Assembly: GCA_032158125.1 (NCBI GenBank)
Contig: JASKOT010000018.1
Coordinates: 248,001-312,000 of the forward strand
Direction of reading: 5' to 3'
DNA length: 64,000 nucleotides
Source: Papiliotrema nemorosa
Lineage: Eukaryota > Basidiomycota > Tremellomycetes > Tremellales > Rhynchogastremaceae
Part shown: positions 27,277 through 54,100 of the stretch, one piece after another
How the letters are laid out: each line of letters opens with the position of its first letter
Position numbering within the stretch: position 1 is the stretch's first letter
Position numbers and translations under genes: made by a program
Notes under the pieces: generated by a model
Databases searched by the model: none
Seen by the model: the letters and a program-made list of their open reading frames with translations, nothing else
Told to the model about the DNA's origin: nothing

Positions 27277-27829
27277 CCTGTCCGCTCGATAGAATGTTCG
27301 AGAGCAGTGAAGTAGACAAGAAGAGTGCCGGAAAGAGAAAAAGGTAAGGAAAGGGGGGACAGGGAGGAAGGAAGAGGAAGGGGGAAGAGGTGACTGGACT
27401 GGTACCGGTCGAGTGGCGGAAAAACTCACAGCAAAGGCGAAGAGGTCTGTGCGTTTGGGGGGAGCGGGGGTGGGGGGTGACACGCTGCTTCCTTCATATG
27501 AGCACTTGTATCTGCGATCTTCAGCATGGGGTCCAGAGGCGCTTTGCCCACCACAAGCATGGGGAGGCAACATGGCGAGCTCAGTGAGTACGGTGTTGCA
27601 CTGAAAAGAGCTCCGCTGAAACCGGCAGAATTACGTCGATCATTTCCCCGGGGTAAAAGTCAGTCACGACGATCTCGTCTCGTCGACGTTGATCTCATCA
27701 TCCCTTTCTCCCCAACCTCCCTTGGAGACATTCACACTCATGCAGCGGTGATACACAACGAGTCTGATTCCAATCCGAGCCGCTCTTCGTGTCGAGACCG
27801 AGTTCAACTTGACACGGCACACGACCGCA
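27277..27829. promoter_or_regulatory. Divergent promoter region, CFIm25 / PAF-acetylhydrolase
   Basis: The 553-bp divergent gap includes a purine-rich plus-strand tract (GGAAGAGG repeats, about 27320-27400). That tract is a CT-rich leader for CFIm25 on the minus strand. I see no other gene; open frames at 27390-27604 lack any domain. Confidence 0.5.
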
Positions 27830-29320
27830 ATGCCCTTGTCACCCATCTTCTCTGGTTGGCTGCCTGGAGCTACTCCTGGGCCTGTCAAGGAGATCGGCTA
27901 CGCATACTTTCGCTCAAATCCACTGGTACCATTTAATACCCCATCTCCGAGGCTATCAACCACAGGAGATCCTGCGCTCAAAGTGCAAGAGGCGGGATAT
28001 GCCTTGTTCTATCCTTGCGATCCAGCTACCGGGAGCGGTAAATCAACAACCTGGTTCCCTGAGCCAGTTGGCGAGATGGTCCGAGGCTATGAGCGATTTT
28101 TAGGGAAGAAGGGATTCAATTGGCTCTGTGAGGTCCCTCAGATGTCTCATGCATCGTGCCAGAGAGCTAACGATTTAGTTCAAGGGTTGAGACTCATCAT
28201 CGGACGCTTGAAAATCCCCTGTTACCCCAACGCGTCCCTCGCACCGAAAGACAGCAAATACCCCCTCATCATCTTCTCGCACGGCCTTGCTGGCACACGT
28301 CATACCTACACCCAATATTGCTCTGCTCTCGCTTCTAGAGGCTATGTCGTCCTCGCTCTCGAACATCGAGATGGGTCGGCCCCAGCTGTACTTCTACCTT
28401 CCAAACCCGCTTCGATAGGCAGCGATGAAAGCGGAAAGAGCGAGAAGAAGAAGGAACCGAAGCAGAGGGTGCTATCATACACCAAAAAGGACGAGATTGA
28501 ATGGCAAGGAGGGGAGGCTGGAACATTGGAAAAGTTTAGGACATTGCAATTGGAGATGAGGGTCAGGGAAGTGTACGAGGCGTATCACTCATTCAGTCGA
28601 TGGGTCAAGGGTGATCTATCGGGTTTCGACATTGAGCACTCGGAAAAGGTCAAGATGGGCGAGTTCCAATCCTCCTTTGAGAACAAGGTCGATTTCGAGA
28701 AGATCGACCTGATCGGACACTCGTTTGGTGCCGGGACGGTGGTGAGGCATTCCGCCAATCAAGCGTGTAAACCGCTGATCAATCAGCTTCACCTCTTGGG
28801 ACAGCCTGTTCCTGATTCTGCATACTCCATGTTGCCTGTGCAACGTGCGATTGCTCTAGATCCCTGGGTCGAACCGATTCCTAAACCCACAGAGTCGACG
28901 CCTTCTCCCTCGCAAGATCAGCCACCTGTTCTCATCATAAACTCGCCTGGATTTACGGTCTGGGATAGTCACTTTCACCGACTCTTGGACATGACAAAGA
29001 GGATCAATGGATCGCTAGTCACCATAATCGGTATCAATCGTATGTGTTCATCTTCTCCGATACTCATAAGCTCGACTCTAATACCAGATCAATCCTTCTC
29101 TGACTTCCCTTTGCTCTCCCCTTCTTCACCTTCTACGGCGCTGGGCTACCTACATACCATTCACGAACTTTCCAGCTCATTCCTGGAGGGAGCATTTGCT
29201 GAGAACAACACGATCAAAGACTTGCAGCCTGATGGAGGAGATTTCGCTCGTGGAAGTGACGGTAAGATGGACGGAGCCAACGGAAGTGTCGTCCTGCATT
29301 TTCTGGGGAAGCAGACTTAG
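27830..29320 (+). CDS. Platelet-activating-factor acetylhydrolase family lipase
   Basis: An alpha/beta hydrolase that removes short or oxidised acyl chains from phospholipids. The nucleophile elbow is GHSFGAGT (about 28720-28742, catalytic Ser). The Asp lies in ALDPWVEPIP (about 28855) and the His in GINHQSFSDFPLL, which appears only after splicing an intron of about 48 nt (about 29040-29087). The oxyanion region reads FSHGLAGTRHTY. A 51-nt in-frame intron after NWL (about 28128-28178) is likely: removing it gives NWLFQGLRLIIGRLKIPCYP, the conserved entry to the domain. A Lys/Glu-rich insert (about 28420-28520) separates the core strands. No signal peptide or N-myristoylation Gly is visible, so it is probably intracellular. 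The start is MPLSPIFSGW at 27830; an in-frame ATG 21 nt upstream is possible. Confidence 0.9.
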   Translation: MPLSPIFSGWLPGATPGPVKEIGYAYFRSNPLVPFNTPSPRLSTTGDPALKVQEAGYALFYPCDPATGSGKSTTWFPEPVGEMVRGYERFLGKKGFNWLCEVPQMSHASCQRANDLVQGLRLIIGRLKIPCYPNASLAPKDSKYPLIIFSHGLAGTRHTYTQYCSALASRGYVVLALEHRDGSAPAVLLPSKPASIGSDESGKSEKKKEPKQRVLSYTKKDEIEWQGGEAGTLEKFRTLQLEMRVREVYEAYHSFSRWVKGDLSGFDIEHSEKVKMGEFQSSFENKVDFEKIDLIGHSFGAGTVVRHSANQACKPLINQLHLLGQPVPDSAYSMLPVQRAIALDPWVEPIPKPTESTPSPSQDQPPVLIINSPGFTVWDSHFHRLLDMTKRINGSLVTIIGINRMCSSSPILISSTLIPDQSFSDFPLLSPSSPSTALGYLHTIHELSSSFLEGAFAENNTIKDLQPDGGDFARGSDGKMDGANGSVVLHFLGKQT

Positions 29321-36110: not shown

Positions 36111-37076
36111 CTACACAAAAAGATCGGGATGGCAGCCCACACACGATCGGCACTCGGTGCAAGTGGGATCATAATCCACCTCATTCTCCGCATCACCATC
36201 GACTTCAAGCTTGTCCTCCCTCAAGGCTTTTCCGTCGGCATCTTGACCCACCTCCCACGAGGCGACAGGAGTGAGCAATCCAGGTCCGAAAGAATTGAGC
36301 AATCTCGATTGAGCCTTTCTGCTTCTGCTTTGAGGAGTCTTGCTGATTCCGCTTCTGACGAGGGTATCGTCTGCAGATCCAGATCGGGACCTGTCATTCT
36401 GCCTTAACGTCCCTCTCCACTTCCTTCCCACATACTGCATTCTTGCTCCGCTTGAGCTCGACAGAGTTGAAGATTGTTGGGAAATGTGCACGTCTACATA
36501 TTCGGTAGGTGCCCGAATCCATGGGCGGCTCACCCTTTGCATGGAATCCGTATGCTGCTCCCACACGATACATGACGTTGTGTTCGACCCCGCCACATCC
36601 TCCAAGCGAAGACTTGGGGCGTTTCCATCTCTCAGACCATGTGAGTCGCTCAAGATGGAGTACACAGTGGCAGCGTGTCCCTTCTGCTGTTCTTCTTGCG
36701 CTAGAAGAGGAAGAGACCAGGTGTGCTGTGCGCTCTCGACAAACTCCCGATATGTTTTTGATTGTGTCAAAGTCTCAAGGATTGACCGTCTAGCCCATGC
36801 GACTGTTTCACTAAGACATGCTTGGCATGTCGTATCGCCTACAGGAGGAATGTGGCAAATGTCGAGGGTGTAACGACCCAGCTTTGCCCCATCTGGGAGA
36901 GCCTGAATGCCTCGAGGGATGATAGTAATGCTCATCGTGGTCGCATTGTCCCGACCGTCCTCGTCGATTCTTTCGAGACGACCTGAGTCGTTGGTTTCAA
37001 AGTTGCTTTCAGATGTCATCGTGCCGGTTTTGCGATTCGTGCTGACTTCAAGACCAGGTTGAAGCTCATAATCCAT
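36111..37076 (-). CDS. Tandem-array paralogue P1, unknown family
   Basis: I do not recognise this gene. From the ATG at 37076 it encodes about 321 residues without an intron. It shares with its four minus-strand neighbours a diverged core: a strand followed by Pro (MSITIIPRG, the counterpart of WVLVMP in P3), a Leu-rich helix (LSETVAWARRSILETLTQSK), a second helix (KGHAATVYSILSD), a hydrophobic strand at the place of the shared LV-AHP motif (SCIVWEQH) and a last strand (YVDVHIS). It is the most divergent member. The C-terminal third is Arg/Ser-rich, then acidic (VDGDAENEVDYD), and ends in four cysteines spaced CxxCxxCxxC (CTECRSCVGC), absent from the other copies. An in-frame ATG at 37148 lies inside a TATATATGG box, so 37076 is the likelier start. 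No signal peptide is visible. Confidence 0.65.
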   Translation of the reverse strand: MDYELQPGLEVSTNRKTGTMTSESNFETNDSGRLERIDEDGRDNATTMSITIIPRGIQALPDGAKLGRYTLDICHIPPVGDTTCQACLSETVAWARRSILETLTQSKTYREFVESAQHTWSLPLLAQEEQQKGHAATVYSILSDSHGLRDGNAPSLRLEDVAGSNTTSCIVWEQHTDSMQRVSRPWIRAPTEYVDVHISQQSSTLSSSSGARMQYVGRKWRGTLRQNDRSRSGSADDTLVRSGISKTPQSRSRKAQSRLLNSFGPGLLTPVASWEVGQDADGKALREDKLEVDGDAENEVDYDPTCTECRSCVGCHPDLFV

Positions 37077-37635
37077 GCTGTGTTTCCTCTGAATGAAATG
37101 TGAGCAGGGAGTGGCGAAGAGGGAGAAGACAACCTGCCAGGCTACCATATATACAATTCATACATGTCACAGAGGACGGGCTTCCAGATGAGGCGTTGTC
37201 GCAGGTTATCACGTGGGGAATCAGCTCAAAGGACATGCCTGGCGTGGGGTTTCCAATCGCTCATCAATTCAAGCCCCGAAGATGACGCGGGCCAGTAAGG
37301 ACAATGGGACAAAGTTGAGGCGTCTCAAGTACATGGGAATGGTGTCTCGACCATTGGAAGTCTACGTATGCCGGTATCAAGACTGATTCGAAAGAAGTCG
37401 GCGTATCGTACCTCATAGACGGCGGAAAGCTGTGAGCAGCTTCGAGCTCTGCCCCGTTTCATCCTCTCAATGCTGCATCATTATCTACCTGTGGCCCATT
37501 AACATCACCGATTCCCGTACTGTCACTTCGCCTTTGCTCCCCTTCCATGGAGCCCAAGAGTTGTACTTTCTTCTTTCAGCCTCAAAGTCGACCGGAAGAA
37601 ATACTTGTCCATTTTTGCCTGCATTGCCGATTCAC
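37077..37635. other. Intergenic region, P2 stop to P1 start
   Basis: This 559-bp tandem gap carries the P1 promoter near its left end. A plus-strand open frame at 37432-37704 overlaps the P2 end and has no domain. I see no RNA gene or repeat in it. Confidence 0.45.
37147..37155 (-). promoter_or_regulatory. TATA-like box of paralogue P1
   Basis: The minus strand reads TATATATGG about 71-79 bp upstream of the P1 start codon. The ATG inside it is in frame with P1 but would be too early to be transcribed if this box positions initiation. Confidence 0.4.
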
Positions 37636-38526
37636 TCAGAATCCGACATCGAGCCTCGAATCGCCGTGAATGATGCAGTCCCCCGCCTCAAAAGCAACGG
37701 ATGACTCGGACACGTATATGACGGAGACGGGAGATCTGCCCGTTGCCTGAGCTTGCCCCCATGCATCTTCTGCTTGCTCTGGCGCATCGTAGTACTCGTT
37801 TTCGCTCCACATTGACGGAGTGTGGGTAAACCTGGTCAGGGGGGAGGTCTCAATCGAATGCGAGGGGGCTAGACTCCAGCCTTCAGGCATTTGCTCGCTT
37901 TCAGCTGGACCGGCTTCTGCTGCTGTGATTTCAGTTGCCCCCGTTCCGACTGCTTCGGTTGTTGAAAGATGAGGATATGGGATGCCGACCACTATGGTGC
38001 GCCATTGACTAGGAACGGACACTCCAGGCCCTAGAGAGGCGCGGAGTGAATCCAGAGCGTTCCGATGAGCCAACATAAGCCTGTTCACTTGGGTTCTGTC
38101 CTCTGAAGACTTCTTTAGGTCGTGAAGGGCGGAAGCCATGGACATGATGTGGTGATAATTCCAGGCGTCCGCACTTCCCAATTCTCTATCACCCTCGAAT
38201 GTCGAGCCTACTCGCGCTCCCCTCATGTGCTCCTGATTGAAGACTGATGGGTGGCACAAGGCTGAATAGATTGTATTCTTGACTGTCTTCAGGTCACTGT
38301 TCTGGATGCCGTTAGTGGCCGTGGAACCAACCCGGTACTGCACTGCGGCATTACTGGTGTCGGCATCATAGCAACATCTCTCAGGTACCACGATTATGTG
38401 AGCTTGAGGAGATCCTTTCCAGATTACATGATCTGTCTCGCTGTCAGTCAAGTCTGTGAGCAGATCATTTCGAGCCTCCGCGCGGAAGGGGGCATCCCAA
38501 GGCATTTCAGCAAGACAACGTACCAT
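37636..38526 (-). CDS. Tandem-array paralogue P2, unknown family
   Basis: I do not recognise this gene. From MVRCLAEMPWDAPF at 38526 (ATG in an ACCATGG context) it encodes about 296 residues; the frame is open farther upstream to 38778, but that part looks like leader. Shared core features are the strand-Pro HIIVVPERCCYDAD, the helix LKTVKNTIYSALCHPSV, a turn HMRGARVGSTFEGDRELG, the helix WNYHHIMSMASALHDL, the strand-helix NRLMLAHRNALDSLRASLG and the strand WRTIVVGIPYP. LMLAH aligns with LVLAHP of P3 and LVVAHP of P4. The C-terminal part is acidic and Ala/Glu/Thr-rich. There is no signal peptide, transmembrane helix or catalytic motif that I can name. A shared core-promoter-like element lies about 150 bp upstream. 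Confidence 0.7.
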   Translation of the reverse strand: MVRCLAEMPWDAPFRAEARNDLLTDLTDSETDHVIWKGSPQAHIIVVPERCCYDADTSNAAVQYRVGSTATNGIQNSDLKTVKNTIYSALCHPSVFNQEHMRGARVGSTFEGDRELGSADAWNYHHIMSMASALHDLKKSSEDRTQVNRLMLAHRNALDSLRASLGPGVSVPSQWRTIVVGIPYPHLSTTEAVGTGATEITAAEAGPAESEQMPEGWSLAPSHSIETSPLTRFTHTPSMWSENEYYDAPEQAEDAWGQAQATGRSPVSVIYVSESSVAFEAGDCIIHGDSRLDVGF

Positions 38527-39469
38527 GGTGGCTTTCAGTGGCCGGCACGTAAGGGTAAGCTGAGGTCTCAGACGACTTGGGGTGTTTGGTAGACTTGGGC
38601 ATGTGTAAGAATCAGTGTGCTGTAAGTGTTCAGCTAGAGGGAAAGACGTCTTTAAGAGTATGACTAGCGGAAAGGTCAAGCTTCTTATACTCTGTCGGGG
38701 AAGGGCGAAGGGGGATTTGTGAACTGCAGATAATTTCTCCGAGCATCCAGGCCCCGCCTCAGCTAATTCACATACCACCTTTGACTGAGCTTGGAGAAGT
38801 TGTTGTGATGCTTCAGTTGTGAGAGATTGACCTCCTCAAAGGATGGGCCAGGAGCCTGTCGTGTACCCCTCCCTCAGTTCCTCCTCAGGAGGTCTGTCGG
38901 AGTTCCATAGTCTCGCAGGCACAGGGCTCCGTCATGGGAAGGGCAAGTAGGTGAACGACGGGTGACTGACCCACGAATACATGCTTCGAGGGGACACCCG
39001 CTTCCAAGATAAGTCGATCGAAGAGAGTCGACGAGCATTCGTGTCGTTGAGCTTTCCTGCATTGGGATGGCCTCAGCTTTGGGGTTTCTGACCATTTTTC
39101 CGGGCCCTGAGCCGTTCCGGACAGGACATACTGAAGACATCGTTGTAGACCTGACAAGGATAGGCACACGTTGGTCGGTAGTGGGTTGAATCATTGTGGA
39201 TGGTCACATGTCGAAGGCGAGAAGCAGCCCGCTGGCTCAAAGCTGGTCCAAACAAGCATCTGAATCAATGCGCGGTCATGTGAAGACGAGTTTCGAATGT
39301 ATGCATCATAGCCTGCCTCCTCAAAACGGGGCATGAAGAGCAAAGCAACGGACTCCTACAGTATTCTCCCCGTCTTCCGCTGAATCCCACAGCACCACCA
39401 GCCGTATCTGATCGCCGTGCATACTTCCCCAAGCCAAGAGATTCACCTTCGTCGCCATCGTTGTCAGGT
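38527..39469. other. Intergenic region, P3 stop to P2 start
   Basis: A 943-bp tandem gap. Its left part holds the P2 promoter. The right part (38874-39255) has three overlapping minus-strand open frames of 60-106 codons that do not match the array core. They may be chance or the worn remains of another copy; I cannot tell by eye. Confidence 0.4.
38674..38695 (-). promoter_or_regulatory. Shared core-promoter-like element upstream of P2
   Basis: On the plus strand GGTCAAGCTTCTTATACTCT at 38674-38693 closely matches GGTCAAGCTACTTGTACTGT at 40455-40474 upstream of P3. On the gene strand it reads as a TATAAG-type box followed by AGCTTGACC, about 150 bp before the P2 start codon. The conserved sequence suggests duplicated promoters. 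Confidence 0.5.
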
Positions 39470-40378
39470 TCAGGCGGACTCAGCGTCCGAAAGACTGTCT
39501 TGGAACTGGGTGGCGCCTTTCTGAGGTACTTGCGTGATGGGAGGGCGTCCAGTGGCGCTCTGCCAACTATTCCATGCAGCCTCGAATCTGAGACCATTTC
39601 GCGGGCTCAGCTGACTGCGACCCCTTGAGGCCGGAGTCAGTGAGGCGGTAGCTGCCCACAGCTCGTCGAACGACTGTCCCTCGCCCGCAAAGGTAGTCTC
39701 ACTTCCCTCAGCAGAGGGAGTCTTTTCGATTCGACCGTGCGAGGCAGGAACATTAATCTGCAGCAGACACAGCTCGCTTGGATCCAGGTCTGTATCGGTC
39801 AGACCCAGATACCTCTTCACTGCGTATATAGACGACGGATGAGCCAGGACAAGGCTCTCCAGTCCTGGCATGTGTTTGAGAGACCCCACAATCAGTCTCA
39901 TGTGGTCTGCCCTCCAAATGTCCAATTGCTCGCTACTCATTTCACCGCCGTTTCGTATGCTCGACATATTCTCACTCTCAAGCATAAGTGGATGGTTGAA
40001 ACCCCGATGAATCCAATCTGCGACCGACTTCCATGCTTGATCTTGTGAGTCCTTGATTCTGGGATTCACACCGCCAAGAACATATTCCACGCTTTGTGGC
40101 CGACCGTCGGAATCGTAAACGGGGCCAATGGGCATGACGAGCACCCAGGTTTTGTCCTCACGTGCGGGCCCAGACGTCCTTACGGGCTGTATGTGAAACG
40201 ATTGGTCTGCGAGTCAGAAACGTTAAGGTCAATTGTACTGTCTAGATGTTCCCTCGGGGAGAGGCCATCATCCAACGACGTGACATTGGGACGACATACC
40301 GTATCGTCTTGCAGTCGCAGCCCGTGGCCACCCAGAAGTAGTGGGCTCAGACGTGAAGTATCGTGAAGCGTCAGACAT
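39470..40378 (-). CDS. Tandem-array paralogue P3, unknown family
   Basis: I do not recognise this gene. Two exons are joined by a 93-nt intron (40207-40299, phase 1) and give about 271 residues starting MSDASRYFTSEPTTSG. Core order: basic-aromatic lead-in (YDQSFHIQPVRTSGPARED), strand WVLVMPIGPVYDSDG, helix AWKSVADWIHRGFNHPLML, turn MSSIRNGGEMSSEQLDIWRA, helix DHMRLIVGSLKHM, strand ESLVLAHP, helix AVKRYLGL and strand LLQINVP. P4 matches nearly every element, including the phase-1 intron and IRNG. The Ser/Thr/Arg-rich C-terminus is disordered. No signal peptide, transmembrane segment or known catalytic motif is visible, so the protein is probably intracellular. Confidence 0.75.
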
Positions 40379-40838
40379 CAGTGCAATTAACAACGGAAAA
40401 TGGAGGGGAGGACAGGATCAAGAAAAAGAGGGGTGTGCTGAATTCGAGAGGAGCGGTCAAGCTACTTGTACTGTACTGTACATACCATGTCGGAATAGGG
40501 CAGGCGAGAAGCCCTGACCGGACCTCGTGATGTCTCCAAGTTTTCATGGCCGCCCCGACATTTTATTATCCAATCCTTTGTAAATAAGGCGTCTCAACAT
40601 CCGGGAAAACGTTTTGAGCTTTGAAGGCCGTGGGACTGTTTCACAGATAGTATGAGGACGACGTCAAAGGATGAGGAGGAACAGGTCTCATCGACCTGAC
40701 CCTTCAGCTCCCCCTCATCGTGTAACCCTCTGGGAGGCGCAATTGACTCTCAGCGGTAGGCCGATGCAATGCATCACATAATGTGTCTACGAAATATCTG
40801 CAAGGGGGTCCATGCATGGTCATCGAGGTTTCCATCTC
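40379..40838. other. Intergenic region, P4 stop to P3 start
   Basis: A 460-bp tandem gap that carries the P3 promoter elements at its left end. The remainder is mixed sequence with an AT-rich patch (about 40560-40590). I see no gene. Confidence 0.45.
40455..40480 (-). promoter_or_regulatory. Shared promoter elements upstream of P3
   Basis: The block 40455-40476 matches the P2 upstream element (GGTCAAGCTnCTTnTACT). Overlapping it, TACTGTACTGTA at 40469-40480 is the reverse complement of a 12-mer at 42118-42129 upstream of P4. The elements lie 77-102 bp before the P3 start codon. Confidence 0.5.
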
Positions 40839-41970
40839 TCATTGATCATCGCGGTATCGTGCAGGGAGCTGGCGAGTGCGCTTGGGGCGTCCCGGTTGTC
40901 TCTCCGCAATCCTGACCATAGACTGCTCCAGTAGTGTTTCATCTTCCGTTACAGGATTGTACCCGTCCATATTGTCGGCAACGTCTGGGTTCCCTTGCAG
41001 CACCAGATCGTCACTCAACTCAGGTGTGCCCAATATGACCTGAAAAGCTTCACACGCTCCCTCGGGTGGTTCAAGCAATGGAAGACTGGATACCACAGAG
41101 CGTTTGCATATCTCCAACCCTTGAAGTTCCTCTGTTCCGAGTCGCATTACCCGATCGGCCTGGCTGATATCAATTTCTTGCATCTCCACCTGCGTGTCGC
41201 CACTACCTGCCGCCACATTACTCCCAGACTGTGGCCGTTCCGACATCGATTTCGTGCAAGTTCCTATCGTGGCATGGACACCATTCTGGGCGCTATGTTG
41301 CTTCTCGACCAAGGGGAAGGAGGATCCAATGCTGAAATCAATCCTCTTGAACGGCGGTGTGGAGTTCGCGAAACCCAGCATTCTCCTTGCCTCGTCGTAT
41401 GCCCATGGGTGGGCTACCACAAGGTTTTCCACTCCTTCGACTTGATCCGGCTCACTTCTTTGCAACATATCAAGTACCGTGGACAAAGTCATAACATGAC
41501 TGAGCCGAAAAAAATCCAAATCTTCATTGTCTCCGTCGGTGAACTTGCCGTTTCGTATTTCCAGCAGAGATTGAGATTTCTGCGTAATTGGGTCAGACAA
41601 GGCCCGCGTGATGATGGCAGTCACGGCCGCGTTGTCAGAACTTTGTTTCTTCTGGAAGCCTGTGAGATCCCCGACCAGATAAATCATGGTACGCTCTCCC
41701 GTCCTAGGGTTGTATGCAGGACGGTAGGGCATGACAATGATCCTCTCATCTTGTGAAGCCGAACCCATTGGTCGTATAGCGGCGCCCACCCAGAACGCGT
41801 GTCCTTGGAGTGGTCAGTCTTCATGGACGGTATCAATGAGGTGGAGACCAAGAGAAGTTGTGGAAGCACTCACCAAACAACCTGGAGTGATAAGTTGAAC
41901 GGGGTGCTGAGTGGAGTGCAGATGTCTCGAAATCTCCTTTCTGGAAGATCGATGTCGAAGATGGGGACAT
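40839..41970 (-). CDS. Tandem-array paralogue P4, unknown family
   Basis: I do not recognise this gene. It is the largest copy, about 353 residues in two exons with a 70-nt phase-1 intron (41804-41873), the same phase and relative place as in P3. It starts MSPSSTSIFQKGDFETSALH. Core order: lead-in HAFWVGAAIRPMGSASQDER, strand IIVMPYRPAYNPRTG, helix AVTAIITRALSDPITQ, turn LLEIRNGKFTDGDNEDLDFF, helix LSHVMTLSTVLDMLQRS, strand ENLVVAHPWAYDEARRMLGF and strand FKRIDFSIGSSFP. The C-terminus is acidic-polar and ends in a basic patch (GRPKRTRQLPARYRDDQ) that might act as a nuclear signal. The exon join restores the FWVG lead-in, which supports the gene model. Confidence 0.75.
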
Positions 41971-42117
41971 GCTGAAGTAGAGAAAGTCTGGATGTACATA
42001 CGAGAGCTGAGGGGTCAAGGGAAACGTAAGGTAAACCTGGACCTTCACGGTTGACACAGGACCCCCCGAAGAGCAGAGGACCAAAGTCCGACTGCATCTG
42101 GCGTGAAAAGAGGTGTA

Positions 42118-42129
42118 TACAGTACAGTA
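42118..42129 (+). promoter_or_regulatory. TACAGTACAGTA element upstream of P4
   Basis: This exact 12-mer recurs, inverted, at 40469-40480 upstream of P3. It lies about 150 bp before the P4 start codon within a TGTATACA context that may double as a TATA-like box. Confidence 0.4.
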
Positions 42130-42264
42130 TCATCGTCCCCCTCAAGGAGGTGTTGCACTTAGATATGAAAGGATATCATCTCACGAAGTGCGTATCATAC
42201 GCCCCGCGATACAATAGCGATTACACACCACATGCATCATCCGAAACTACCAAGACAAGTGCCT

Positions 42265-42975
42265 CTAGGCAGACTGGTCAGCCTCCAAACGCGTGCCCAT
42301 GGAAGAGACCAAGATAAGGGCCGCTTCAACCACATCTCTAGGCGCATTCCCGACTTCAGCCCCCTCAAATCCATCTGTATCGGGGTGAGAAGTGACTTCT
42401 CCGTCCCCGACGTTGCCAATCGTACACCCACATACCCTGGTATCGCTCTTCCTGCATTTGCTTGCTATAGTGTGCCAAACGTACGGGTTGACAAACCTCA
42501 CGCTCTTGATGACTGTATCGCCCAGACCTTCGTTGCGGATGTACTGATGCAATGCTTTGTTCAAAAGTATAGTACGTGACTCTGTCGACCTTCGTACCCC
42601 TTCGTCTGAGCCGCACTCGATGTTCGGTACATCACTTGACGAACGATTGGCCATTGTCTGGTGCAAAGTGTCGGACCTGAAGAACGCGTGAAGACTCGAA
42701 CGAACCTTGTCCACAGCTTCTCTTGCCGTGTGTGAAGAGTCGAGCAAGAGAGGGACGACACTGTGATGTAAAGTCTCGACCGCGTCGCCATTCTCGTCCG
42801 TATCGTGTCCCCATGCTTGTGGAACGACTAGGGCCCCGAAGCCGTGGTCTTTTGGTAAATTCAAAAAGTTGAAAACGGCTTGATGATCAACAGTACACCA
42901 CTCGCAATCTTGCAAAGCTGTGTCAATCGAGGCGTCCTTGTTAGTGTCTTCATCAACTTGCATTATTGCCGACAT
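42265..42975 (-). CDS. Tandem-array paralogue P5, unknown family
   Basis: I do not recognise this gene. A single open frame of 236 residues starts MSAIMQVDEDTNKD. It keeps the core order in worn form: strand GALVVPQAWGHDTDENGD, helix AREAVDKVRSSLHAFF, turn SSDVPNIECGSDEGVRRST, helix RTILLNKALHQYI, strand-helix KSVRFVNPYVWHTIASKC and strand VCGCTIGNV. The AHP signature is replaced by VNP. Unlike P3 and P4 no intron is needed near the N-terminus. A TATATA sequence lies only about 8-15 bp upstream of the chosen start codon, which is unusually close, so the true start may be the internal ATG of MQVDED or the box may be unrelated. The neighbouring promoter shares GAGCTGAGGGG with P4. Confidence 0.65.
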   Translation of the reverse strand: MSAIMQVDEDTNKDASIDTALQDCEWCTVDHQAVFNFLNLPKDHGFGALVVPQAWGHDTDENGDAVETLHHSVVPLLLDSSHTAREAVDKVRSSLHAFFRSDTLHQTMANRSSSDVPNIECGSDEGVRRSTESRTILLNKALHQYIRNEGLGDTVIKSVRFVNPYVWHTIASKCRKSDTRVCGCTIGNVGDGEVTSHPDTDGFEGAEVGNAPRDVVEAALILVSSMGTRLEADQSA

Positions 42976-43274: not shown

Positions 43275-46200
43275 CTACGCCACTCGACCGGCCTTTGCTC
43301 CGCCAAAGAAACTCTTCAAACCTTTTCGGCTCTTTACACTCCGCGAATCATCCCCCAGCTGACCTCTTCTCGGGGGCCACAAGTCTGATTGCCCAAAGCT
43401 ACCCACTGATCCGCCTGCGGACGGTTGAGCATACATTGACTGGGCGAGACGAGGCGATTGTTGTCTTGCTCGAGTGGGTCGGTCTCCTAGCGGATCGAAG
43501 GAGGCTCGAGATTGATCATACCCTGCATTGGGATACGATCCTCGAGGAGAATCCGCCAGAGGTGGATATCGAGGCGAGTTGAATGCGCTGTTTGGTTTCG
43601 ACCCAGAGTAGGGCAGTCTATCATTTGGGAATGCAGCCTGGAACGAGTCTGGCGAATTGGCCGCCGCATTTTGGTCCTGACCAGAAGGAGGTAAAGGTGG
43701 CAGATTCTTATGTCGGTTTGGCGACGCTGAACCTTTCCCAAACGTGCCTCCATGAGGGATGTTGTTTGGCGGAGGTGGAAAGAAGGCATTTGCACCATTC
43801 GCCAGGGGCGGAGGAGTCTCCACGGTTGGCATAAGCAGGCTCGAGTTGGAAAATGTCGAAGTCGTCTTGTTGTGTGGCCGGAAGGCGTGTGGCGGAAAAC
43901 TTCCCTGTCCATGTCGCGGCATGCCGGCAATCTCTCCGTCATAAGCGTGCACTCGATTGCCGGACAGCATCTCCATGCCCGAAGTGCGTCTTTCTGGATC
44001 GACCTCCCGCCCCGAGGCATAGCTTTCCCGTCGATATCTGGAGCTCGTGGGTGACGCAGATTGGCTTCCACCTGAAGACGAACCAGCTTGAGGGGCAGAA
44101 ACGGAACGCATGCCGTACGGTAGATGAGCAGATCCCCGAGGCACAGAGTTGTCTTCTGTCAACATTGAAGATGTCGATCCGCTGCGATTTCGATTCTGAT
44201 CCTTTCGACCATCTGCAAGATATGCCATGTTCGGAGGCGGAGCTAACGGTCCCGTCGATTCGGCTCGAACATCCGGTCTCGGCTCCACATCTAAACGTGA
44301 CGACTGAGAAGATCGAGATGCCTTGGAAGACTCTTTCTTGTGCCCTTTGCCCTTCATCTTGCTCAGGAAACCTTTGAAGCCTTTCTTCTTTTCTGGTTGA
44401 CTGTCCTCACGCGAGTCTTGCGAATCGTCTTTCACCATGATCTGAGACAGCCGAGATGCGCTGATGGAGTTGCTGAGGGCCCTGGGTCTGTCTCTTGTCT
44501 CGCCATTGACGGACATTTGTGAGTCTCTGCCGAAGAACGACGGTCGAGTAGGGGATGCGAGCGATACAGCCCGAGGTTGAGCATGAACAAAGTTTGACGA
44601 AGTTCGGTTTTGGCGATCAGAATCAAGGCCGAGGCTGGATGATCAGTGGTGTCATAATGATGATCGTTAGACTTACTGCATATCCATCATGCTGCCACTG
44701 CCACCTGCACTTCCGCCAAAGAAGCTAGTGACACTTCCGCCCCATCTGCCAAGCAAGCTTTTTCTGACTCCATGCCCATCACTGCTGCCCTTTCCACCCG
44801 CAGCTCCAGCGCGGACAGCGAAGGAGAATGGCCGCAAACCACTTTCGGCGGGAGAGATCGGCGGCCAAGCTTCTTCATCTGTATCAGCCCAGATGTCTGT
44901 TCTGCCACTCCGATCGAGCGTCTTGGTACTGTTGACGCTCCTCCGCCTCGGGTCCCGCACTTGCGTGTTGATTGAAATGGGTGATCGCTGGGCTGGCATG
45001 GGTTCGCGATCTGGATAGAAATGGGTGGTAGGTCGACTAGCAGCTGGCGAAGCTTGGACCAATCGAGGTTGACCAATGTTTGCCAAATCAGCAGGCGACG
45101 AGGGACTTTGTCGGACGGTCGAAGGGGGTTGAGCTTGAATACCGAGTCGAGGCTCCTCCAAAGCGTTTCGCATCTGCTCGCTGAGCTCTCTTGCGTGTTT
45201 CTGTCCCCATGCGACCGAGCTGGTCCGCGGTCCAGCAATAATGCTCTGACGATCTGCCGATAACACGGCTCCGCTGCCAGGCACTTCTCCTGGTTCCGGA
45301 TACTTTCCGGTTCTCTGAGCTTCCGCCCGTATCTCGCGGACAAGAATTGCCTGGTGGTACAGGTAGGTGTCCATGTTCTTGGCTCGCAACGCTGAAGCCG
45401 ACGGGAACTGCACGTCAGGAGGCTTCTACTCAGAGGACCACAGCTGACTTACCTTCTTCATGACGGCCTTGATTCCGTCCTCTGTCAAAGGTCCACCTCG
45501 ACAGCCTCTGAAACCCCTTGGCAGACCCTCGCCAGAATTGCCTTCCTCCCACTTGAATCCTCTCCAGCCAATCTCATGGGCGACTCTCCAGTCGATCTGC
45601 CTTCTCCTGGCTTTCCGTTGCTCCCTCCGCCCTGTCCTTGCTGCAATCCTTCGCCTCGCTTCCAGATCATCGAGAGAATGATTTGTAGAGGGAAGACTAG
45701 AATCCTCGTCATCACTCTCTGTCGAGTGGTCCAATGAAGGGATGGAGCTTGACAAGGTCGAGTCGCAACCGATAGATCTCATTAATTCCTCTTCCCTCGA
45801 TCGAAGATCTTCCCAAGCTATATCACTCTTCCTCCCCCACACTCCTTCACCAGAAACGACAACATCCGCCAGGTCCCTATCCCGCATCATGCACTCGATG
45901 CACACTTCTTCCTGCACTGGTTGCCTTCGAGGCGTCGCACCGGTCTGGGGTGGTCTACCCAATCCAACGTTGGACGGACCCGCTCCGTTGAGGTTTCGAG
46001 GAAGGATAGATGGTGAGGCAGAAGGGTATGGCCCAGCATCTGCCAGACCTCCAACGACGGGTATGGATGATGCAGATTTGGTTGGCATATGGCGAGATCC
46101 GGGCTGGGCTGCGGCAGTGACGACGGGGAGATCGGGAGATTTCAGTGGAACTTCATATCGCGCCGCCATGCGAGGTGACGGATGGGGGGGTTGAGAAGTG

Positions 46201-51127: not shown

Positions 51128-54100
51128 CTACCGATACCCATACTGCTGGCCATACGAGTATTGACCCCCTTGTCCAGGTTGATTCTGCTGTGAAGGGGGA
51201 GGATGTGACGGATAACCACCGTAAGGCTGTTGAGGTGGATTGGGCGGTTGATAAGTTTGCTGAGTATGTGGTGCAGGAGATTGATACGTTTGCGAAGGGT
51301 AGGCTGACTGTGGTGGTGGGGCGTATGCAGGGTAAGAATTCTGTGGTGGCGGAGAAGTCTGCGTCGGAGGCGGGGGATAATACGATGAAGAGCTTTGCCG
51401 AGGAGGGGGAGGAGGGTAGGGTGATGAGCTCTGCCCGTAACTCGTCTGGGCGGTCTGTGAAGGGGGAGGTGAAGTGGGGTAGCTGTATCCCGAAGCCGGT
51501 CTTGTAGTTGGGGGAGTCGGATAGGGGTTCGAGGGAGGTTGGAGTATTGATGATGAGTAAGGGTTTGAAGAAGGCTGGGAAGGCGGGGCCGGATACCCGT
51601 ATGATCCTTGTCTGTGCTGCGGTTGCTGTGAAGAGGGAGAAGGAGCAGTCGAGAAGGCAGACGGGATCGAAGAGAGGGTCGAAAAGTCGTATGGCGAAGG
51701 CGAGGTCGGCTTTTGAGCAGGAGGCGGGGGAGGAAATGACGGAGTAGAAGGATGAGGTGGTGGTGGCGGCAGTCCGGGCGTCGACGAGTAAGGCTTTGGT
51801 GGTTGAGGCGGGGCAGGTGAGGCGTATCGATCCGTGCCCAGAGACATCCCCGCTAGCTGGGATTCCAGTCCACGAGCACCTGCTCCAGAAGAAGACAACG
51901 GTGGGGGCGAAGTGGAAGAAATCCGTTGTCTCGTCTCGATCTCACTGACCATCCTGCTCCTCTCGTTTTCCCGATTCTTCACCCATCCTCGGACCTCCCG
52001 ACTCAAATCTTGCAAAACAACACTCATACTTTCGTAAAATGACAAACCCTTCCCGGCTCCCGCGTTGATCTCGTTCCAGCCTTCTCCAGCGTGTTCGAGC
52101 CTCTTTTCCCATTCGCGTACCCGCTTTTGTCGCTCTTTCGCTCCTTTCTGACGTTCCTTGATCCCCTTGCCCTTTTCCACCTGTCGAGCGAGCATCTCCA
52201 GCTCTTGCAGAATCGATTGCGAGGCTTGCACGGCGGAAGCCAGTCGACCTTGGAAGGGTCGGAACTTTTCCAGTTCAGAAGCGAACAGTTGCGGCTCGAC
52301 ATGTTGCGATCTTCGGTTGAGCAGGAGCAGATTTGACACGTCGTCATTTTGGATCTATCCCGTCAGCAAGCCCATACTCTCGCTAATGTCCACTGACCTT
52401 ATCCTTGAGATCCTTCAACACCTCGTCTCGCTCTCGTCTGATCTTGCCCAATCTGTCGAGTTTTTCTTGCGCCTCTCCGATAGCCTTCTCCAGCTCTTCC
52501 TTTTCTCTCACATCCAGCCCATTCTTTGTCGCGCCGACATCATCATCCAGATCCAACAGACTGACTCCGGGCTGAACTCGAGGAGCCTGCTTGCCCGCTG
52601 CGACTTGTTGAGCTATTTGTTTGATCGCACTCTCCCCTTGTGCCAAAACGCCGATATCAGCCTGAATATCCCGCCAGAGGTCTTTCAAGTTATTGTCCGA
52701 CGAGGCTGCAGCAGACAATGAACCGAGGTTGGAGGAAATGTTCGACCTATAATGGCTCGTTTGCGGTCCGGAAGGGGATTGCGTGAATTGAGGGGTGTAT
52801 TTGGCCTGTCCCATGAGCTCTCACCACATTGTGAACACTCGCAAGAGCTCACCCTCATTCGTTCACACTCTCTGCTTTCGGTATCGAGCAGCCCGCTCAA
52901 CTCTCTCAATTCTCGCTCGCACTTTTCGCGCTCAGTGTCCAAACTTCGAACGAGATTCGCCACGCTCCCGCCTCTCTGCACATCTTCCGCAAGACGGCGC
53001 AGACTACCACTAACTTCCGTCTCAGCCTCGCCATCTTCATCCTCATCCGCCAACTTCTTCCACACACTGACGATCCCTGGGAATCCCAAATGCTCGAGAC
53101 CGGCACGAATCTCCCCCTCGCTCATGTCCACCCTCTCCACCTCTCCTCTGACCAGCTTGGCCTTTTCTTCCGAGTAGACCGACGCAGATTCGTGCACTGC
53201 GAGGGGGACAAGTTTGATGAAGATATCCGGTCCGATGAGTTTGGACACTTCGGTGTTTTGGTATACCTCTTGTATCGTGATCGGTGCAGCCGTTGGAAGC
53301 TTCTCTATGGCCGGTAGCGCCGCTTCGGAGGGGAGGATATCATGATAGATCAGATCGTTATCCTTCACTGCTTGATCTTTCGCCTCTTGACACAAGGTAG
53401 CGTGAGCTTTGGTAATCTCCACCAGACTTGTAGCTGTGTCATGGGGTAAAGTCGGTGTTGCCGCTGCGTAAAACGTATAGTTGAAGTTCGAAGCTTGTCG
53501 ACTGGCATCTTGAGCCGCCGTATCGGCCTGTTTGAGCCTAACCAGCGCAGCTCCATGTTTCCCACTCGCCGCATCGGCCGTCGCGCGGTAATACTGCGCC
53601 ATGGAGAGATACAATTTCGCCTTGATCTGTAAGACGTATAACCAATTCCTGTCGAATACACCTTTCCCTTGAAACTCTTTCATCTCCTCCACTAGAGAGT
53701 TGTACATTCCCGCTGCGGAATTGGCCGATCGGCAGACCAACGCTGGAGCCTTTTTCTCCTCGATGAGCTTTTCCGTGAACACCTCTGTGGCTTGAGCCAT
53801 CAAAATACCGATGAGAAGGTGTACCACTTCTCGACTGAGATCGGTAGACGGGGCATGGAGGAAATTGTCGTTGATATACGTAAGCATACCGGCCGACGCT
53901 CGGAGGTTGAAATAAGCCCTTTTGACGCCTTCTGGATCGGCACGTGAGGTCGCAGAGGCGATGGCTGATAGGACAGAGGAGAGGAGGTGGATGATGGACG
54001 CTTTCTCGAAAGCCAGCGAAGTCTGAGTGGTCGGTTTGAGCGTAAACGCATCGTTCCTAAAGGTCAGCTAGAATCGTGAAACAAAGAAGCACAGCTAGCC

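Follow-up and report, generated by a model that had tools for sequence, protein, structure and literature searches.

Among described systems, the closest to the locus considered here are the lineage-specific (orphan) gene families of fungi, which have no relatives detected outside their lineage and no recognised domain, and, at the level of the protein fold, the RNase H-like fold of RNase HII and of the Prp8 RNase H-like domain. Failure to detect homology often accounts for lineage-specific genes (PMC7660931), and a Neurospora crassa study reports that most of those it counted adjoin telomeres and group with HET-domain genes (PMC10684091). Our locus lies in a 64,000-nucleotide stretch of the Papiliotrema nemorosa contig JASKOT010000018.1 (hereafter the window, C18:248001-312000), where three neighboring minus-strand genes, B, C and D, encode homologous proteins. 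Like the orphan families, these genes have no relatives detected outside the lineage and no recognised domain, and they additionally stand in tandem copies; in contrast to the N. crassa genes, they have HbrB and a TRAPP component on their low-coordinate side, and some 50 kb of contig lie beyond the end of the window. We tentatively read B, C and D as an anciently duplicated, lineage-restricted, probably non-enzymatic alpha/beta binding family with divergent tails, at a probability of roughly 0.45. Though undescribed, the locus looks like an ordinary example of a tandem gene family restricted to one lineage.

Tandem homology and a common intron site

The genome comprises 19,186,542 bases in 68 contigs, of which C18 accounts for 362,500 bases, and the gene content and introns are fungal. 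A first-pass annotation had described five tandem paralogues, P1 to P5, and the five long minus-strand frames behind that description are all present. They are named A to E here by rising coordinate, corresponding to P1 to P5, a numbering deduced from what the annotation said of an intron in P3 and P4.

Gene A (P1), 36111..37076, minus strand: single open frame; family membership unsupported.
Gene B (P2), 37636..38602, minus strand: exon 1 38602-38524, intron 38523-38433, exon 2 38432-37636; 291 amino acids (aa).
Gene B intron, 38433..38523, minus strand: GTACGT...CAG, phase 1, with CTGAC starting 15 nt before the intron end; predicted from sequence.
Gene C (P3), 39470..40378, minus strand: exon 1 40378-40300, phase-1 intron 40299-40207, exon 2 40206-39470; 271 aa.
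Gene D (P4), 40839..41970, minus strand: exon 1 41970-41874, phase-1 intron 41873-41804, exon 2 41803-40839; 353 aa.
Gene E (P5), 42265..42975, minus strand: single open frame, 236 aa; possible, unproven distant fourth member.

Our pairwise test, which covered the 10 pairs among A to E with 400 shuffles each, revealed local scores of 117-151 for the three pairs formed by B, C and D when B was spliced, and of 115-141 when it was not, with 0/400 shuffles as high for each pair in either case. The three proteins are 22-31% identical to one another, and protein searches of their own genome linked them at E values of 3.6e-9 to 4.4e-4, the search with C listing D and not B. A 140-column core was also aligned end to end, at three gap settings and with 200 shuffles, with the first 300 residues of each of 139 open frames, genes or not, that span at least 200 codons and come from a 200-kb part of the contig or from what remains of the window; at the stiffest gaps, left-out members of the trio scored 99.5-120.5, with null maxima of -7.0 to 2.5.

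B, C and D are each predicted, from the DNA alone, to carry a phase-1 intron, and its position is the same in all three. The spliced junctions align (D-HVIWKG in B, G-HAFWVG in D and D-QSFHIQ in C), and CTGAC starts 11-15 nt before the intron end in all three. In B, an open frame that runs far upstream of the core masks the gene structure; the annotation was right to place the intron in both P3 and P4 and counted too few, for B (P2) shares the site. One intron site common to three genes is evidence of common descent that is independent of the protein core. Judged from these comparisons, B, C and D are true tandem paralogues and the three certain members of the family.

Core nucleotide identity over the three pairs amounted to 0.38-0.42 at first, 0.50-0.58 at second and 0.26-0.35 at third codon positions, in a comparison of within-genome paralogues that gauges conservation rather than positive selection. 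Third positions are near chance, and the duplications would therefore be old; second positions are held, and the core therefore appears constrained. Amino-acid identity was 0.25-0.31 in the core and 0.16-0.21 in the tails. The duplications had been called old or the genes fast-evolving: the codon positions favor duplications of old date and a core under constraint, and fast change found no support. The same holds for a fast-diverging conflict or recognition cluster, which received no positive support from sequences that display constraint on the core; a conflict or recognition role is possible. No HET domain was found among the 25 window proteins and exon frames scanned with Pfam, and the genome gave 0 matches to it in a search that returned none in any control genome either.

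Database searches and the predicted core fold

When A to E were used as queries against their own 19.2-Mb genome, in a search that scores the best candidates only and reads exon by exon, nothing beyond the cluster scored better than E 0.0767. A BLASTP scan at E 1e-4 of 491 frames of at least 120 aa, covering 264 kb (C18:1-200000 and the window), revealed no other trio of homologous frames within 8 kb. Two other homologous pairs were found in the same 264 kb: at C18:141025-144680, two adjoining frames 18 bp apart with 25% identity over 200 aa, a tandem pair or an internal repeat; and at C18:113008-122709, two frames 6.8 kb apart with several repeat-like short stretches that are 31-41% identical. 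Among 5.8 billion proteins, searched by a method that requires shared five-residue words, the B/C/D profile yielded 6406 candidates and two matches, the window's own D and B, and the E query returned only itself among 286 candidates. A control query with HbrB returned 66 proteins, one of them its own, the named matches including Tremellales sp. Uapishka_1, Kockovaella imperatae, Cutaneotrichosporon, Trichosporon and Naganishia, and related fungi are therefore present in the database. Searches of Pfam, NCBIfam and PDB sequences produced nothing above cut-off, and no Pfam family exceeded its cut-off for any of the five proteins, which agrees with the annotation's view that none carries a nameable domain.

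These searches bear directly on the alternative that B, C and D belong to a wider known fungal family with a conventional function, lying beyond the reach of the tools. Detection failure is, as noted above, often the explanation for lineage-specific genes, and a dependence on shared five-residue words could hide relatives of copies that differ this much among themselves; yet a profile search of so many proteins, tremellomycete records included, found none, and neither Pfam nor the PDB sequences gave a match above cut-off. We consider this alternative unlikely, if slightly less so than the others.

Two AlphaFold models of the B/C/D core, with a mean pLDDT of 69-70, place the same elements in the same order: two strands, several helices in a row and a strand-helix-strand unit. 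Structural searches with these models gave no confident match, and RNase H-like folds recur among the weak, non-significant ones, with an element arrangement that is weakly similar. The core might accordingly be read as a catalytically inactive RNase H-like domain, comparable to that of Prp8, serving as a nucleic-acid or protein binding module. In RNase H, the catalytic Asp/Glu residues occupy the first strand and a position after a later strand. These carboxylate positions are not conserved among the invariant columns of the core alignment, where the invariant polar residues are R84, E92, D95, H101 and H122 (numbered by the first row of the alignment); the acidic E92 and D95 lie on helix 91-109 of the second model, and H122 follows a strand. 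The genome, moreover, carries RNase HII and RNase H matches at other loci, and with structural scores for the core that are low and non-significant, an inactive RNase H-like domain is doubtful. A composite proposal, in which a tremellomycete-restricted family of three or four tandem copies would pair the invariant Arg/Glu/Asp/His/His set with either an unrecognised, catalytically dead RNase H-like core or a novel alpha/beta fold and would bind nucleic acids or proteins, seems improbable as a whole.

Genes A and E and the surrounding locus

The claim of five tandem paralogues stood for B, C and D and failed for A, which passed none of the tests, with E possible at best. The seven pairs involving A or E scored 31-45, reached by 12 to 342 of 400 shuffles with B spliced and by 13 to 344 with B unspliced. 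A B/C/D hidden Markov model (HMM) gave full-length E -1.7 bits, with 341/1000 shuffles as good (-1.8 bits and 377/1000 with B spliced), and full-length A -2.1 bits, with 560/1000 as good (-2.2 bits and 610/1000). Run on the window's 951 open frames with 40 codons or more, the HMM found as its best match beyond its source frames an out-of-register frame overlapping gene A, at E 0.28. The hhalign probabilities against B/C/D were 0.20% for E and 0.27% for A. Neither A nor E shows the intron common to the trio, both frames being open throughout. The frame of A is open from an upstream ATG at 37148, and ATG 37076 is the likelier start because the upstream ATG sits within a TATATATGG stretch.

The core test told the two genes apart. 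E scored -13.0 at the stiffest gaps, matched or beaten by 1/139 frames and 0/200 shuffles, and at the softer gaps by 3/139 and 4/139 frames and by 1/200 shuffles each; its traced alignment is convincing through the first two strands and the first helix only. A was matched or beaten by 47, 61 and 28 of the 139 frames and by 86, 113 and 75 of the 200 shuffles. A frameshift-tolerant DNA scan against 562 null chunk strands produced 16 strand scores from eight stretches, three of them containing B, C or D. The score of the E coding strand was reached by 29% of the null strands and that of the gene A stretch by 0.9%, a signal that we rejected as a mark of family membership, as it falls in another frame and A's own frame scored 15.7 against a null mean of 20.0. 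In the B-C spacer (38603..39469, minus strand), pieces spread over two frames look like the core to the eye and keep its order, a possible decayed copy, with a score reached by 4.1% of the null strands, which is not significant.

By these sequence measures, E could be a fourth copy of much greater age, or a distant member, A is best treated as an unrelated neighbor, and the family would have three members, perhaps four. Least probable of the readings, and lowered further because the nominal signal of A is out of frame, is that all five genes form one array with a conflict or recognition role whose members have diverged too far to be recognised by sequence, for which the single strand, the adjacency of the genes, the similar element order by eye and the core score of E speak, against the failure of A and E in the pairwise, HMM and hhalign tests, the failure of A in the core test, the missing intron, the partial E alignment and a HET search of the genome without a match, in which no control genome gave one either.

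The array had also been placed between housekeeping genes, which is correct for one side. The low-coordinate flank holds a TRAPP component (PF04051, E 1.5e-5, 25.2 bits, below the cut-off of 27) and HbrB (Pfam E 1e-11); the gene on the other flank (43275-44516) has no Pfam match. Elsewhere in the window are a platelet-activating factor acetylhydrolase-like gene (27809-29317, plus strand, Pfam E 4.2e-37) and a BRO1/ALIX-type gene in two long frames with a BRO1 domain and a V domain (51131-53887, minus strand).

A proposed binding role and its meaning

We propose that an old tandem duplication of one gene with a single phase-1 intron near its start would have given rise to B, C and D. The product would be a lineage-restricted soluble protein in which a core of about 140 residues stands between a short N-terminal segment and a C-terminal tail, the core (two strands, several helices and strand-helix-strand) being under purifying constraint and the tail less conserved and probably disordered. 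Most likely, it would work inside the cell as a binding or adaptor domain without enzymatic activity, and the tails would set the roles of its copies apart. As the annotation had held, none of the five proteins shows a membrane segment by hydropathy, the maximum 19-residue mean hydropathy being 0.94-1.36, and a soluble binding module fits the lack of membrane segments, the constrained core and the looser tails. Gene D ends in a basic tail, PGRPKRTRQLPARYRDDQ, that includes PGRPKR, and a PGRPKR-type match occurs in D alone among the five. We take this motif to resemble an AT-hook, a nuclear signal or a transposon-type basic motif, and the tail hints at nuclear or DNA contact.

Several points weigh against this proposal. 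We infer the fold, the tail disorder, the absence of catalysis and the binding role, and the proposed function derives from sequence together with two models of moderate confidence, each built from the three family sequences themselves. The database search, with its need for five-residue words, recovered two of the three known members, missing C, and both were the window's own. Finally, R84, E92, D95, H101 and H122 could constitute an unrecognised active site.

An alignment made by eye over five neighbors overstated the size of the family. What the locus adds is one undescribed, apparently lineage-restricted family with corrected gene models. Its intron site is independent support for a shared ancestry of three copies, and its few invariant residues can now be put to the test. 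Should the core prove to have a novel fold, or that of an inactivated nuclease, structural and fungal biologists would find it moderately interesting.
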